This document shows, in pieces, positions 36,849 through 48,823 of a DNA stretch of 64,000 nt. Every line of letters starts with the position of its first letter. The stretch's first letter is position 1. Source of the stretch: Modestobacter versicolor. Lineage in GTDB: Bacteria > Actinomycetota > Actinomycetes > Mycobacteriales > Geodermatophilaceae. Where the stretch lies: the NCBI RefSeq assembly GCF_014195485.1, contig NZ_JACIBU010000002.1, positions 186,001 to 250,000 of the forward strand, in the 5' to 3' direction. Under the pieces are notes generated by a model. That model ran no database searches, had not been told where the DNA came from, and saw nothing but the letters and a program-made list of their open reading frames with translations. Position numbers and translations under genes: made by a program.

Positions 36849-36921
36849 TAGCCCCGAAGGGATTCGAACCCTCGCTACCGCCGTGAGAGGGCGGCGTCCT
36901 GGGCCGCTAGACGACGGGGCC
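36849..36921 (-). tRNA. tRNA-Glu (CTC)
   Basis: A 73-nt tRNA. The acceptor is GGCCCCG paired with CGGGGCT plus discriminator A. The D arm, anticodon stem CCGCC/GGCGG with loop CTCTCAC (anticodon CTC), and T arm GAGGG-TTCGAAT-CCCTT are clear. CCA is not encoded. It is one of two identical copies. Confidence 0.97.
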
Positions 36922-36997
36922 GTGCACCTGCGCCACGATTCTGGCACGAGCCGGCGGACGCCGTGCGGAGGGGTCGGCGGCGGGCCCGGAGACGACG

Positions 36998-37029
36998 AGA
37001 GCCCCCGACCCGGGTGGGTCGGGGGCTCT
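36998..37029 (-). terminator. Terminator of the second tRNA-Glu unit
   Basis: A 14-bp stem AGAGCCCCCGACCC / GGGTCGGGGGCTCT with a GGGT loop, 8 bases below the 3' end of the second tRNA-Glu. Confidence 0.85.
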
Positions 37030-37037
37030 GCCAGGTG

Positions 37038-37110
37038 TAGCCCCGAAGGGATTCGAACCCTCGCTACCGCCGTGAGAGGGCGGCGTCCTGGGCCGCTAGA
37101 CGACGGGGCC
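37038..37110 (-). tRNA. tRNA-Glu (CTC), second copy
   Basis: Identical in sequence to the copy at 36849-36921, with the same hairpin downstream; the DNA between the two units is not conserved. A local duplication is the simplest explanation. Confidence 0.97.
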
Positions 37111-37165
37111 AGGTACTGCTGGTGGTGCGGTCGTGCGGTGGTGCTGAGGAGGTGGTGCTTCCTCG

Positions 37166-37237
37166 CTGGGGTACCAGGACTCGAACCTAGACTAACGGAA
37201 CCAGAAACCGTCGGGCTGCCAATTACCCCATACCCCA
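37166..37237 (-). tRNA. tRNA-Gln (CTG)
   Basis: A 72-nt tRNA with acceptor TGGGGTA paired with TACCCCA and discriminator G. The anticodon loop TTCTGGT (anticodon CTG) has a T-T mismatch at the closing pair. The T arm is CTAGG-TTCGAGT-CCTGG. In actinobacteria Gln-tRNA is normally made via Glu-tRNA(Gln), so this lies beside its charging enzyme, GltX. Confidence 0.95.
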
Positions 37238-41411: not shown

Positions 41412-42992
41412 TCAGCGGTGCCGCACCGCGTAGGTCATCGCGTCGACCAGCGCGTGCCAGGAGGCCTCGACGATGTTGTCGTGCACCCCGACCGTGGTCC
41501 ACTCCCCCGCTCCGTCGGTGCTGTCGACGAGCACCCGGGTGGTGGCGCTGGTGCCGCCCTTCCAGCCCAGGATGCGCACCTTGTAGTCGGCCAGCGAGAC
41601 GCCGGCCAGCTGCGGGTACCGGCCGACGAGCGCCTGGCGCAGGGCGTTGTCCAGCGCGTTGACCGGGCCGTTGCCCTCGCCGGTGCTGATGATCCGCTCG
41701 CCGTCGACGTGCACCTTGACGGTGGCCTCGCTGACCACGACGCCGTTGCCCCAGTGCTCCACCGAGGTGCGGTAGCTCTCCAGCTCGAACAGCGGCTGGG
41801 GGGCGCCGGGCAGCTCGGCGCGCAGCAGCAGCTCGAACGAGGCGTCGGCCGCCTCGAACGACCAGCCGTCGGCCTCGAGCACCTTCACCTGGTCGACCAC
41901 CCGGCCGATGGCGTCGGCCTGGCCGGCCAGGTCCACCCCCAGCTCCCGGCCCTTGAGCTCGATCGAGGCGCGGCCGGCCATCTCGGTGACCAGGATGCGC
42001 ATGTCGTTGCCGACGACCTCCGGGTCGAGGTGGTTGTACAGCTGCGGGCGCACCTTGATGGCGCTGGCGTGCAGCCCGGCCTTGTGCGCGAAGGCCGACG
42101 CCCCGACGAAGGGCTGGTGGTCGTCGGGGGCGATGTTGGCCAGCTCGGCGATGGCGTGGCTGACCCGCTTGAGCTCGGGGAGGCACTCCGCGGGCACCAC
42201 CGGCAGCCCCATCTTGGTGACCAGGTTGCCGATCAGCGCGAAGGTGTCGGCGTTGCCGGCCCGCTCGCCGTAGCCGTTGGCGGTGCCCTGCACGTGGGTC
42301 ACGCCCGCCTCCACCGCGGCGAGGGTGTTGGCGACCGCGCAGCCGGTGTCGTCCTGGCAGTGGATGCCCAGCTTCCCGGTGGTCCGCGCCCGGACGTCGG
42401 CGACCACCCGGCCCACGCCCATCGGCAGCATCCCGCCGTTGGTGTCGCACAGCACGCCCACCTCGGCGCCGGCGGCGAACGCGGTCTGCAGCACCTGGAC
42501 GCCGTAGTCGGGGTCGGCGGCGTGGCCGTCGAAGAAGTGCTCGCAGTCGAGGAAGACCCGCCGTCCGTGACCGACCAGGTACGCGACCGTGTCGGCGACC
42601 ATCGCCAGGTTCTCCTCCAGCGTGGTGCGCAGCGCCTCGCGCACGTGCCGGACGTCGGACTTCGCGACCAGGCACACCACCGGGGTCTGCGCGTCCAGCA
42701 GCGCCTGCACCTGCGGGTCCTCGGCCACCGCCACCCCCGCCTTGCGGGTCGCGCCGAACGCCACCAGCTGGGCGTGCCGCAGCTGCAGCTCGGTGCGGGC
42801 CCGGGCGAAGAACTCGGTGTCCTTGGGCAGCGCACCGGGCCAGCCGCCCTCGATGAAGCCGACCCCGATCTCGTCGAGCAGCCGCGCGACGGCCAGCTTG
42901 TCGGCGACGGAGTAGCTCACACCCTCGCGCTGGGCGCCGTCGCGCAGCGTGGTGTCGAAGACGTGGAAGTCGGCGGTGGTCTCGGTGGCCAC
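41412..42992 (-). CDS. cimA: (R)-citramalate synthase
   Basis: A 526-residue DRE-TIM metallolyase with an N-terminal barrel (HVFDTTLRDGAQREGVSYS), the metal motif HCQDDTGCAVANT and a C-terminal LeuA-type regulatory domain. It fits citramalate synthase of the LeuA/CimA family, which converts pyruvate and acetyl-CoA to citramalate for isoleucine. The leader peptide upstream with three Ile codons supports that role over homocitrate or isopropylmalate synthase. GTG 42992 has GGGAGGA 5 bases upstream; the next GTG upstream (43028) would overlap the terminator. Confidence 0.93.
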   Translation of the reverse strand: MATETTADFHVFDTTLRDGAQREGVSYSVADKLAVARLLDEIGVGFIEGGWPGALPKDTEFFARARTELQLRHAQLVAFGATRKAGVAVAEDPQVQALLDAQTPVVCLVAKSDVRHVREALRTTLEENLAMVADTVAYLVGHGRRVFLDCEHFFDGHAADPDYGVQVLQTAFAAGAEVGVLCDTNGGMLPMGVGRVVADVRARTTGKLGIHCQDDTGCAVANTLAAVEAGVTHVQGTANGYGERAGNADTFALIGNLVTKMGLPVVPAECLPELKRVSHAIAELANIAPDDHQPFVGASAFAHKAGLHASAIKVRPQLYNHLDPEVVGNDMRILVTEMAGRASIELKGRELGVDLAGQADAIGRVVDQVKVLEADGWSFEAADASFELLLRAELPGAPQPLFELESYRTSVEHWGNGVVVSEATVKVHVDGERIISTGEGNGPVNALDNALRQALVGRYPQLAGVSLADYKVRILGWKGGTSATTRVLVDSTDGAGEWTTVGVHDNIVEASWHALVDAMTYAVRHR

Positions 42993-43033
42993 GGGTCCTC
43001 CCGGGGAGTCGATTCTGGGCCCGGACACGAAAA

Positions 43034-43056
43034 AACCTCCCGGGGTACGGGAGGTT
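43034..43056 (-). terminator. cimA attenuator: hairpin-U6 terminator
   Basis: In transcript direction AACCTCCCG and CGGGAGGTT (43048-43056 with 43034-43042) form a 9-bp stem with a 5-nt loop followed by U6 (43030-43035). It lies between the leader peptide and cimA. Confidence 0.9.
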
Positions 43057-43084
43057 GCGCGCAGTCGGGGAGGTGGCTGCGCGC
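43057..43084 (-). promoter_or_regulatory. cimA leader hairpin upstream of the terminator
   Basis: GCGCGCAG (43057-43064) and CTGCGCGC (43077-43084) pair perfectly. The loop contains CCACCTCCCC, which is similar to the left arm of the terminator and could compete for its right arm (CGGGAGGTT). It overlaps the leader stop codon. Confidence 0.7.
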
Positions 43085-43116
43085 TAGCTGATGATGATCG
43101 TGCGGGTGGCGTCCAT
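43084..43116 (-). CDS. Leader peptide of cimA (isoleucine attenuation)
   Basis: A 10-residue open frame MDATRTIIIS followed by TAG, ending 28 nt before the terminator stem. Three consecutive Ile codons (ATC ATC ATC) are what an isoleucine-sensing attenuator needs. It is too short for standard gene callers. Ribosome stalling here when Ile-tRNA is scarce is the predicted signal that allows cimA transcription. Confidence 0.85.
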   Translation of the reverse strand: MDATRTIIIS

Positions 43117-43231: not shown

Positions 43232-43633
43232 GTGACCACCAGCTGGGAGGTCGTCCACCGCACGGACGACGGCGAGCGCGTCGGGTACCTCGCGCCCGCG
43301 GCGGACGGCGTCGACCTCGTCGTCCCGATGACGCTGGCCGGCACCCCGGCCGGCGGGCCGCTGCCGGCGGACGAGGCGACCGCGCTGCTCACCGCCACCG
43401 GGCTGGCGCTGCTGGCCCGGCGCTGGTGGTGCCGGCTGCCCAGCCCGCTCCCCCGCGGCGTGACCGACGCCCGGCAGCCGGACGACGGGTGGTCGTGGCA
43501 GCCCACCCTGCTGGTCGAGGTCTCCCCGCACGAGCTGCGGGTGCGCCCCGAGTGGCCGGCCCCCGAGGAGACCGGCGCCCTGGCGGTGCTCCCCGTCCCG
43601 GCCGGCCGCCTGCTGCGCAGCGCGCCCCCGTGA
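43232..43633 (+). CDS. Conserved hypothetical protein
   Basis: A 133-residue protein, VTTSWEVVHRTDDGERVGYLAPAADG at the start, with WWCRLPSPLPRGVTDARQPDDGWSWQP and VEVSPHELRVRPEWPAPEETG further on. It is Pro/Trp-rich with no membrane segment and no family I recognise. GAGGAGG precedes the GTG. It is divergent from the cimA leader and has a hairpin terminator, so it is a monocistron. Codon bias is like the neighbours. Confidence 0.75.
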   Translation: MTTSWEVVHRTDDGERVGYLAPAADGVDLVVPMTLAGTPAGGPLPADEATALLTATGLALLARRWWCRLPSPLPRGVTDARQPDDGWSWQPTLLVEVSPHELRVRPEWPAPEETGALAVLPVPAGRLLRSAPP

Positions 43634-44825: not shown

Positions 44826-47800
44826 TCAGCCGGCCGGGGTGGTGCCCGGTGCGGTGGTGCCCGGTGCCGCGGTGGCCGACGGCGTCCCGGGCGGGCTGCT
44901 CGCCGGGGCGCTGGGGGCCTCGGCCGGAGCCGGCGTCCCCGTCGGTGCGGCGCTGGTCGCCGGCGGCTCGCCCACACCTGCCGCCGGCTGGTCGCCGACC
45001 GGTGACGGCGGGGCGGACGTGCCGCTCGGCGTCCCGGTCGGCGTGCCGGCCGGCGTGCTGGTCGCGGCGGCCGACGGGACCGGCGCACCGGCGACCGGCA
45101 CCGACTGCGCCCGCCCGGTGGCGCTGTCGTTCTGGTGCAGGACCACCAGCGCGCCCTTCTCCCCGCCGACCGCGGTGTCCGCGGCGTAGGCCGCCGGGTC
45201 CTGGGTGACGGTGATGGTGGTGCCGCCGTCCGCCGGGACCAGGAGGGCCGGCTCGCCCGCCAGGTCGAAGCTCAGGCCCGGCGCCGCCGGGTCGAAGCTC
45301 ATCCGCTGCGCCGCGAGCTCCGGGGAGCCCGCGACCGTGGTCGTGCCGACGTCGTCGACCGTGCCGTACGCGCTGACCGCCTGGACGCCGAAGCCGATCC
45401 GGCCGGTCACCAGCGGCATCACCGACAGCGGCGCGGCCAGCACCTGGACGTCGGAGTAGAACGCGTTGGTGTCGACCGTCCCGTCGGCCACGTTCAGGAA
45501 CCCGACGTAGGGGTCACCGGCCGGCAGGAGGGTGAACTCCCGGTCGGTGACGACGACCAGCGGCGCGTCGAAGTCCGCCACCCGGGTGGTGGTCACCTGG
45601 TAGTCCCAGGCGCCGTCACCGGTGGCGTCGATGAACACCCCGTAGTTGACGGCGGTCTCCGGGGAGGTGGACCGGCCGTGGGCCGACACCCCGAAGTACA
45701 GACCGCCCGCACCGTCGGAGGCGACCCCGACGCGGGCCAGGTCGACCGAGCGCTCCAGCTCCGACTTGTAGCAGGTCGGGGCCGGCGTGGAGGTGCACCG
45801 CGGCAGCTGCGGGCTGGTGCCCAGCTGCTCGAACGCCGACACCAGCGAGGTGTAGGACGTCGGCTCGAACGCCGGGCCGTTGGCGATGCCCTCGCCGGCG
45901 AGGGTGATCGCCGAGCCGTCCGCGGCGGCCGACGCGGTCAGCGTGGAGGCCGGCTTGGGGTTGGCGTGCACCGGCACCCGCAGGGTCGGCGCCTTGGACA
46001 GCACCGGGCGGAGCACGACCCGGCCGCTGGCCTCGCCGAGGAACTGCCGGCCCTCGTTCTCACCGTCGACGACCACCGTCGGGTCCGGCGTCTTGCGGAG
46101 CTGGTCCTGGGTGGCGGTCAGGGTGACCGTCACGTTCCGGCTCTGGCCGGGCAGCAGGACCAGCAGCGGCTGGCTGACCGTGTACCGCACGCCCGGCTGG
46201 CTGACCACCGCGTCGTAGCGGACCGTGTAGACCGCGATCCGCCGGCTGGTGTTCTGGACCTTGATGGTCTTGGTCTCGCGGACCTTCTCCGCGGCGACCT
46301 CGACCACGCCGAAGGACGCCGAGACGCCCCCCGACCCCGGCTCGGCGTAGGCGAGCACCTGGTTGCGCAGCGCCGCCTCGGCGTCGATGCGCCCGGCGCC
46401 GACCCGGTTGGGGCCGTAGACCTCGCCGGTCTGGCCCTGCTCGGTGTGCACGTCGTGGCCGGCGGTGTTCATCAGGTCGGCCTTGACCTGCTCGGTCGAC
46501 CACTCCGGGTGCGCCGCGCGGATGAGCGCGGTGACGCCGGCGGTGGTCGGCGCCGCCATCGACGTCCCGGACTCGCTGACCCCCCGGCTGCCGGTGCCGA
46601 CGGCCGCGGAGTACAGCGTGACCCCGGGAGCGGCGACGTCGGGCTTGACGCCGTTCTCCTGGCGGACGCCCCGGGAGCTGAACGAGGCGATCAGGTCGAC
46701 CTGCTCGGGCGCCTCGAACACCGCGGCGTCCTTGAGGCTGGGCCCGAAGGTGACCGTGACGGTCTGACCGCCGGCGACGGCGCCCCGCAGGGCCGCCCCG
46801 TCGGTCGCGGTGACCAGGATGCCGGGGATCTGCGCGACGCCGGTGATCCCGGTCTCGAGCAGGTCGTCGTCCGCGATGATCATGAAACCGACCGCGCCGG
46901 CGTTGACCGCGTTGGTGCCCTTGGCGACCGACCCGCAGGCGAAGCCGTCGGCCTCGATCAGCAGGATGCGACCGGTGGCGTAGCCGGCCGGCAGCGGGGC
47001 GCACGCGTCCTCGTTGCCCGCCGGGGTGTTCACCAGCGCGCCGGTGACGTCGGGCTTGACGCTGCCGTCCGCGGCCCGGTCGCTGTAGGCGACCGACCGG
47101 AGCCCCGGGCGGGTGCCGTCGACCAGGCCGGCCGGGGAGGTGACCTGCCAGCCGTCGAAGACGCCGAAGCCGTCGTTGGTGGCCGCGACCCCGATGGCCC
47201 GCGGCGCGTTGCCCGGCGACCCGCCGATGTCGTAGCTGTCACCGGCGTTGCCGGCCGAGGCGACGGCGAGGACGCCCATCTTCATGGCCCGGTCCAGGGC
47301 GAGGGCGTCGGCGTCGTCGGCCAGGCCGTAGTCCGAGCCGAGGGACAGGTTGATGACGTCGAGGTGGTCCTTGGGGCTGCCGTCGCCGTTGGGGTCCAGC
47401 GCCCACTCGATCGCCTGCACGGTGACGTCGGTGGAGCCCTCGCAGCCGAACACCTTCAGCGCGTACAGCTCGGCCTCCGGGGCCATGCCCGGGCCGATCG
47501 ACAGCGACCGCGGGTCCAGCCCCCGGTCGTAGCCGCCGGTGTAGGTGCTGCCGTCGGCGTTGACGCCGTAGCCGGCTGCGGTGCCCGCCACGTGGGTGCC
47601 GTGGCCGTTGCAGTCCAGCGGGTTGTCGTCCGGCCGGGCGACCGGGTCGTAGGCCGGGCTGGCCGGGTCGGCGTTGTAGGCGTCGCCGACGAAGTCCCGC
47701 CCGCCGAGCACCTTGGCGCTGGGGTAGACGCCCGCGGGGGCAGGTGCCGCCTCGGCGGCCTGCAGGGCGTCGAACTCGGCGACGCTCCCGCTGCCACCGA

Positions 47801-48476
47801 AGTCGGCGTGGGTGTAGTCGATGCCGGTGTCGATGATCCCGATCGAGACGCCCCGGCCGGTGTTGCCGAGGTCCTCCCAGGCCTGCACCGCCTCCACGAC
47901 CGTGGCCGCGCCCGCGTTGCTGACCTCCTTGGGGCTGATCGGGTGGACGGCGGTGACGCCGGCCAGCTGGGTGAGCTGCTCGTAGTCGGCGGCGTCGGCG
48001 CGCACGGCGACACCGGGGAGCACGGTGCTGGTCTCGTAGAGGACCGCGGCCTCCGGCACGGCGGCCGGCAGCTGGTCGATCACCTGACCGGCCGCGGCCT
48101 CCACCTCGCCCTTGGCGGCGCTGGCCGCCGCGTCGGCAGCGGCCTCACCGGCCGGCAGCGCGTCCGCGTAGGCCTCCGAGCTGGCCTGCGGGGCCACCTC
48201 GATGAAGAACGACGTCGGGCCGCTCTCCGGCAGCCCGGCCGGTCGCTGCCCCTCGGAGCGGTCGGCGAGCTGGGTCTGCACCTGCTCCAGCTGCTCGCCG
48301 GTGAGCTCGGCCTGCGCCTGCCCGGTGGCCTGCCCGTCCAGCGGGCCGCCGGGGGCGGCACCGGCGACGCCGGCACCTGCCGCCGCGATCAGGGCCGTCG
48401 CTGCTGCGACGACCCCCGTCCGGACGGCGAGCCCTCGTCGCCCCGTCCGGGTCGTCCTCGATGTGGTCGGTCCCAC
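44826..48476 (-). CDS. Secreted S8 family serine protease (subtilase) with PA domain and low-complexity tail
   Basis: A 1216-residue secreted subtilisin-like protease. A twin-Arg-like start and a hydrophobic signal (about 15-40, ending AGAAPGG) precede a prodomain (about 85-185). Catalytic residues are D216 (IGIIDTGID), H292 (GHGTHVAG), N410 (ASAGN, oxyanion) and S639 (ESGTSMAAP), with a PA-type insert around 500-580. Fn3-like modules follow. The last 80 residues are Pro/Ala/Thr/Ser-rich, without LPxTG. GTG 48476 has AGGGG upstream and starts the signal; the frame upstream is non-coding. Substrate unknown. Confidence 0.9.
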
Positions 48477-48553
48477 GTGCACCCCTGTCAGCGATTTCGT
48501 GCGGGAGGCTCGCCCGGCCGCGGGGTGCCCCCACACCCACCGCCACGCCCGGT

Positions 48554-48585
48554 TTGGCAACGGAGCGTGTCCACTCGGTTGCCAA
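48554..48585. promoter_or_regulatory. Inverted repeat upstream of the subtilase
   Basis: TTGGCAAC (48554-48561) and GTTGCCAA (48578-48585) are perfect arms with a 16-bp spacer (24 bp centre to centre). This spaced palindrome is about 80 bp upstream of the subtilase GTG and could be an operator or activator site. Confidence 0.55.
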
Positions 48586-48823
48586 TTGCGAGTCACGGTG
48601 AACGGTCGTCGTTGCTGCGACCAACGGCCAATAGGCCGTTCGGAGCAGTGCCGAGCGCCGTTCGGCGCAGTTGGCCCCGCTGTGCGGTCGCTGTGCCCCC
48701 GGTGCTGCGTCCAGCCCCGCCGACGCGCGCAGCCCGCGGCAGGTGGCCCAGTCCCGGTGGCGCGGATGCCACGGTGCTGCGCTGTTCAACCACCCGGGCG
48801 GCCGTCCAGCCCGTGGACGCGAC
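48586..48823. other. Intergenic region between subtilase and serA
   Basis: No gene is seen in the 48477-48894 gap. It is lower in G+C than coding DNA and has a second dyad, AACGGCC-AATA-GGCCGTT at 48623-48640. The serA terminator occupies 48824-48856. Confidence 0.6.

Follow-up and report, generated by a model that had tools for sequence, protein, structure and literature searches.

An isoleucine-codon leader with a putative transcription attenuator ahead of the citramalate synthase gene cimA in Modestobacter versicolor and its relatives

Leader attenuators already described

In the trp, leu, his and ilv attenuators of E. coli, ribosome stalling on cognate codons of a leader decides whether transcription terminates. 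For Actinobacteria, a 2005 survey covers Trp, Cys and Leu/ilvB leaders as well as ileS T-boxes, and its main text makes no mention of cimA or citramalate synthase (PMC1262725). A study of S. lividans gives leader peptides for leuS, leuA, trpE, trpS, alaS, ilvBHC, metNIQ and thrS (eight cases), but neither cimA nor citramalate is named in its main text (PMC8079986). The leuS and ilvB leaders of Streptomyces and other Actinobacteria combine a leader peptide having Leu or mixed codons with a terminator, and those of leuS are described as classical attenuators (PMC1262725; PMC8079986). In the LEU element of leuA, a run of leucine codons lies within a pseudoknot over the Shine-Dalgarno box (PMC1262725). 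The ilvB-II (ilvBNC) leader of Corynebacterium consists of a uORF rich in branched-chain codons that overlaps a first hairpin (P1), followed by a terminator (P2) with a U-tract (PMC10272879). The ilvB1NC leader of M. tuberculosis has four mixed branched-chain codons (LVVI), was tested with reporters and is described as forming either a terminator or an antiterminator, each precluding the other; changing LVVI to AAAA in the leader abolished induction (PMC13236596). On the other hand, earlier work on the ilvB leader of S. coelicolor, as cited second-hand in PMC1262725, found codon changes to be without effect.

We analysed a stretch of 64,000 nucleotides from Modestobacter versicolor (the window), for which an initial annotation had proposed ribosome-mediated control of cimA by isoleucine supply. 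Citramalate synthase is the entry to the threonine-independent isoleucine route. We found no report of a leader attenuator at cimA in the open-access literature; this agrees with the remark in the initial annotation that such leaders are known for ilv, leu and trp genes and that one at cimA is less familiar. The type of switch was already known before related genes, and its occurrence at cimA appears to be new to the open-access literature. At gathering score, the Rfam scan of the whole window returned only tRNA, and no family matched in ten loci (seven cimA and three ilvB). A relaxed search of the region yielded the sub-threshold sRNA families ar14 (17.7 bits, gathering score 58.8) and CrfA (13.8 bits, gathering score 38). 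Rfam includes a T-box model, and no T-box was matched in the window by either the gathering or the relaxed scan.

The cimA leader region and its conservation

All parts of the cimA element lie on the minus strand (Table 1). The leader ORF has three consecutive ATC codons, at -14, -11 and -8 nt from P1, and the G of its TAG stop codon is the first base of P1. This run of isoleucine codons, reported in the initial annotation without a strand, is present, as is the perfect 8-bp hairpin after it (43084-43077 paired with 43064-43057); its loop had been given as 10 nt and actually has 12 nt. The terminator is also present, but the 9-bp stem and U6 claimed for it do not go together, as two bases had been counted twice: the stem is either 7 bp followed by U6 or, with two A-U pairs included, 9 bp followed by U4. 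The two bases of the gap are able to pair with the U-tract, and the terminator scan placed the terminator at 43056-43034. The downstream gene product scored 621.9 bits with TIGR00977 (citramalate synthase; cut-off 450) when scanned from 43028, an upstream in-frame GTG that is a possible but less likely start, while LeuA models gave at most 251.2 bits on the same protein, all under their own cut-offs. The proposed CimA assignment is thereby supported.

Table 1. Coordinates of features in the window and of the leuS leader elsewhere in the genome
Feature	Position	Strand	Basis or remark
-10-like hexamer TTGACT, 7 nt upstream of the leader ATG	43129-43124	minus	YNNACT pattern, chosen post hoc
Leader ORF, MDATRTIIIS and stop, ATGGACGCCACCCGCACGATCATCATCAGCTAG	43116-43084	minus	ATG at 43116; probably leaderless
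Hairpin P1, arms GCGCGCAG / CTGCGCGC, loop CCACCTCCCCGA, 12 nt	43084-43057	minus	folding, covariance model, covariation
Gap AA, 2 nt, from P1 to terminator core	43056-43055	minus	sequence re-read
Intrinsic terminator P2, CCTCCCG TACCC CGGGAGG TTTTTT	43054-43030	minus	terminator scan, alignment, covariation
Shine-Dalgarno-like region of cimA, CGGGAGGACCC	43003-42993	minus	by eye
cimA, citramalate synthase, GTG start at 42992, stop codon included	42992-41412	minus	TIGR00977
ORF between leuB and cimA	43234-43633	plus	translation 43234-43630, 132 aa
ilvB leader with P1 and abutting terminator, GTG start	55403-55306 (model match 55368-55306)	minus	44.5 bits
ilvB, ilvN and ilvC, after the ilvB leader	55327-51643	minus	
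leuS leader (L303), MTGGLLLLPPC and stop, GTG start, P1/P2 layout	C1:1506913-1506852 (own genome)	minus	25.8 bits
Three clustered tRNA genes	36849-37237	minus	Rfam scan
1256-aa ORF	44826-48596	minus	by eye: subtilisin-type secreted protease look, proline/alanine/threonine-rich tail

The element stands out from chance by its folding on the minus strand (z = -2.74; 3 of 200 shuffles fold equally well or better), by the one terminator-like site found in the region against 0.0 expected from shuffles and by its conservation in relatives, the last being the decisive evidence. A role of P2 as the terminator of leuB is unlikely, because leuB ends more than 600 nt upstream, a plus-strand ORF intervenes and P1 and P2 go with cimA in relatives. 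The 132-aa translation of the ORF between leuB and cimA had no NCBIfam match at E ≤ 0.001.

We then investigated the upstream regions of cimA in relatives, which the initial annotation had suggested aligning for Ile-rich leaders and stem pairing. The outcome was strongly positive, with both the isoleucine run and the hairpins conserved. A strict parser found an isoleucine leader with a terminator in 127 of 272 upstream regions. A covariance model, which begins at P1 and contains none of the leader codons, fully matched P1 and P2 in 188 of the 272 loci, although these are not independent samples, since the locus sets overlap, some organisms are present twice and 41 of the loci had trained the model. 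By set, full matches number 124 of 143 (first sets), 32 of 40 (class sample) and 31 of 39 (order sample). In the window's class as a whole, 187 of 222 cimA loci are matched, against one of 50 outside the class in the same phylum (0/30 and 1/20). The P1/P2 element on cimA is not universal within the class, as 35 of the 222 loci gave no full match, at least two of which (L050 and L065) end short upstream. When another sample of the class was searched, 164 of its 196 genomes gave one or more model matches (E ≤ 0.1) ahead of one gene or another. Five loci with mis-called hairpins (L022, L131, L143, L244 and L259) were dropped from the folding, loop-pairing and stall tests. These five, together with L013, L036, L045, L252 and all cores longer than 75 nt, were also dropped before model building, so that long-loop (Streptomyces-type) members are absent from the training set. 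L100 is absent from the second alignment, and L256 (2 bases) was never counted.

Outside the class, cimA leaders ending in FIIIP and SIIIIA before the stop, with a hairpin and a terminator, were seen in L259 and L271, respectively; the model matched the latter weakly (27.9 bits) and the former not at all. Their likeness to the in-class leaders could reflect either shared origin or convergence. L107 has two copies of the cimA leader (908-1009 and 1307-1408), 399 nt apart around a run of N, within a repeat that is identical over at least 299 nt; the duplicate is probably a scaffolding artefact.

Both stems covary. Among 42 diverse sequences, 11 of the 18 pairs show two-sided changes (five of nine pairs in P1, six of nine in P2), and none of 500 shuffles attained the observed covariation values. 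Paired cells amount to 94.7%, a share biased in favour of the structure because it was taken from the same alignment, compared with 42-53% after sliding the partner by one to three columns. The gap between P1 and the terminator core is 0-3 nt in 100 of 107 sequences, with a mode of 1; in the remaining seven, the helix caller made the two stems overlap.

The isoleucine codons keep fixed distances from P1. Among 176 non-redundant hits, Ile occurs at -14, -11 and -8 in 102, 136 and 108 cases, whereas the other fifteen offsets from -20 to -3 have 0-16 each. Without the training loci, which had been chosen by the Ile-run parser, the counts are 83, 106 and 85 of 135 hits (0-9 at the fifteen others), and at least two of the three offsets are filled in 115 of the 135, a subset that still holds close relatives of training members. 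Fewer than two Ile are present at the three offsets in 21 of the 176 hits; 20 of these retain one, mostly beside Val, Leu, Cys or Met, and in L100 an Ile pair is located further upstream. The leader stop varies in position by clade, lying either before P1 (mostly at -2) or beyond its left arm (mostly at +10 or +16), but the Ile codons keep their offsets. Codon choice is also unusual: of 346 leader Ile codons in the 176 hits, 145 (42%) are ATT, against 32 of 2174 (1.5%) in the cimA coding sequence, as counted on the best tblastn piece in loci up to L146 only, an enrichment of about 28-fold that is strongest at -11 (88 ATT, 48 ATC). The window leader uses ATC only. These leaders therefore contain a run of codons for the end product within a short ORF, as leader-peptide attenuators do.

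In many relatives, the start codon of the leader is probably also the point at which transcription begins. This is suggested by a -10-like YNNACT hexamer lying 6-8 nt before an in-frame leader start codon in 90 of the 176 hits, against one out-of-frame case and one in-frame case interrupted by a stop; the pattern had been picked after inspecting relatives, and 86 hits lack the hexamer. For the same reason, a transcription start downstream of the leader, which would speak against the proposal, is unlikely. The window leader, too, is probably translated as a leaderless mRNA, although its hexamer is a poor -10 and a sigma-70 scan at this leader found no promoter.

Kinship with the ilvB and leuS leaders

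When run on the window's own genome, the cimA model matched the cimA element itself (53.1 bits; a training member), the ilvB leader of the window and a site at leuS (E 2.0e-5), the next match having an E of 0.03. The identity of leuS is indicated by TIGR00396, which gave 435.5 bits (E 3.7e-130) for a truncated sequence of 486 residues against a cut-off of 548.4. The model was also tried on the ilvB leaders of 17 genomes and matched all but one (L292). Four of the matched leaders (L284, L290, L296 and L298), like the missed one, belong to family f8, which we have taken for the mycobacterial family, and ilvB leaders of this family have L/V/I codons at -17 to -8 from P1. In the 16 genomes, the commonest ilvB codons are Leu at -17 (11), Val (8) or Leu (7) at -14, Val at -11 (12) and Ile (8) or Leu (7) at -8. 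A single model thus recognises P1 with an abutting P2 before cimA, ilvB and leuS. Because it does so, we place the cimA element in the ilvB attenuator family: as judged from its sequence, it is an isoleucine-tuned, structurally related member of a known actinobacterial attenuator family and should work alike. It shares a run of branched-chain codons with the M. tuberculosis ilvB1NC leader, which differs in its mixed codons, and the order of uORF, P1 and P2 with ilvB-II, which precedes ilvB, has I/L/V codons and is described for Corynebacterium (PMC13236596; PMC10272879).

The match between codons and pathway (Ile at cimA, L/V/I at ilvB, Leu at leuS) also bears on whether the isoleucine codons matter at all. 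P2 could be an ordinary terminator beside an incidental isoleucine ORF, or P1 could be bound by a protein or small molecule; the primary sequence of P1 is conserved (GCGCGC), as expected of a binding site, and the link from leader to isoleucine at cimA is one of sequence. Such accounts leave unexplained why sensor codons follow the pathway, why Ile enrichment is limited to one frame and three offsets and why ATT is so enriched over the coding sequence, and we regard them as very improbable.

Possible working of the cimA switch

The conserved isoleucine run, its offsets and the stem pairing argue for the ribosome-mediated control put forward in the initial annotation, and we consider it highly probable that the element is an isoleucine-responsive transcription attenuator of cimA. 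Transcription would begin on or beside the start codon of the leader ORF, which would be translated from a leaderless mRNA. With ample Ile-tRNA, the ribosome would reach the stop codon and cover the left arm of P1; with P1 blocked, the terminator P2 would halt transcription before cimA. With scarce Ile-tRNA, the ribosome would stall at -14, -11 or -8 with its leading edge near the foot of P1, P1 would form and RNA polymerase would continue into cimA. An intrinsic terminator between leader ORF and gene is evident from sequence and covariation, and in the folding model the state of the RNA is gated by the position of the ribosome. With a modelled footprint of -18 to +12 around the A-site, the mean probability of P1 in 107 sequences is 0.01 with the ribosome at the stop, 0.98 at the first Ile and 0.65 at the last Ile. 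In the window it is 0.16 at the last Ile, so that P1 would be only partly formed there.

The least certain step is how P1 would oppose P2 without pairing with its 5' arm. Equilibrium folding of the whole leader predicts P2 wherever the ribosome stands. The equilibrium probability of the terminator was dropped as a test, since it is also near 1.0 in the four E. coli attenuators, the lowest values being 0.95 and 0.77 for trp stalls and 0.96 for one ilv stall. In its place we took, for RNA whose terminator 3' arm is yet to be transcribed, the degree to which the 5' arm is paired. In a classical 2:3 antiterminator, stalling lets another segment pair with this arm, and the overall logic of a classical attenuator is that of the cimA element; the M. 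tuberculosis ilvB1 leader is also described with such exclusive structures (PMC13236596). In the E. coli controls, pairing of the arm rises from stop to stall in every case (leu 0.04 to 0.85, trp 0.02 to 0.63, his 0.08 to 0.71 and ilv 0.33 to 0.81) when the RNA ends at the arm, and likewise (0.14 to 0.85, 0.04 to 0.63, 0.45 to 0.81 and 0.33 to 0.82, respectively) with 5 nt more, which is closer to the cimA setting; a fifth control, thr (L277), was left out because the terminator scan gave none. Among the cimA elements, by contrast, a rise of more than 0.3 from stop to Ile stall was found in only two of 107, so the stall-induced pairing common to the four E. coli attenuators is not a feature of the cimA family, and a classical antiterminator appears quite improbable. 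The opposite difference, with pairing at the stop exceeding that at the least-paired Ile stall by more than 0.3, occurs in 30 of 107. The arm is over half paired at some Ile stall in 25 of 107, and in the same number at the stop.

Another possibility is a pairing between the loop of P1 and the terminator's 3' shoulder, as has been proposed for ilvB-II of Corynebacterium (PMC10272879). With P1 intact this would amount to an H-type pseudoknot, and it is the same idea as the initial annotation's suggestion that the loop mimics a terminator arm and permits a competing pairing. For the window the suggestion fares well, the duplex of loop and P2 having -13.7 kcal/mol and a shuffle p of 0.03. The shuffle test covered 36 of 40 cluster representatives, four with loops shorter than 5 nt being left out. 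Five of the 36 have p ≤ 0.05, including L086 (loop GGACCCC against GGGGTC), and six have p ≤ 0.1, compared with two of 36 when the arm was reversed as a control. In 107 sequences, native loops have a small pairing advantage over swapped ones (-9.11 versus -8.15; mean z of -0.60 relative to shuffles), and the clade with the P2 3' arm CGGGAGG favours its own loops (-10.55 versus -6.21). However, the mean p over the 36 representatives is 0.45, about 3.6 of them would be expected at p ≤ 0.1, and two clades favour foreign loops over their own. From these comparisons with other loops and shuffles, the loop mimic was rejected as a general mechanism, in which respect the cimA family differs from ilvB-II, and kept for some clades. 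Loop pairing is an attractive prediction for the window's genus, but as the way in which P1 opposes P2 we hold it to be unlikely.

After these mechanisms had been tested, the spacing of 0-3 nt between P1 and P2 is the remaining constant, and for this reason we tentatively favour a blocking of the terminator by abutment, while allowing that it may well turn out otherwise. A rigid P1 helix, 0-3 nt from the base of P2, would stop P2 from closing in the exit channel of the polymerase. More speculatively, and with rather less confidence than we place in abutment at cimA, a modular actinomycete chassis might exist, composed of a leaderless uORF, P1 and P2 0-3 nt apart, placed on at least cimA, ilvB and leuS with the codons at -17 to -8 swapped, and blocking by adjacency without an antiterminator. 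If adjacency rather than base-pair competition were at work, an untranslated leader would be ON, not superattenuated. The fixed distance from codons to hairpin also holds in a type of ilvB leader whose codons have been mutated experimentally, and so the manner in which actinobacterial attenuators antiterminate can be tested directly. In some relatives, a leader segment GGUCUGC was seen by eye to pair with GCAGACC, and a GAGG/CCUC extension of P1 is found in some clades only.

In most of the sampled members of this class, to which Streptomyces belongs, the element would subject citramalate synthase to an additional control specific to isoleucine. Since the leader appears to sense isoleucine and not leucine, it also provides an independent argument for calling these LeuA-like enzymes CimA. 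The genome also has an ilvA homologue (TIGR01127, 419.2 bits; cut-off 378.75), so that the level of cimA expression may decide how isoleucine synthesis is divided between two routes.
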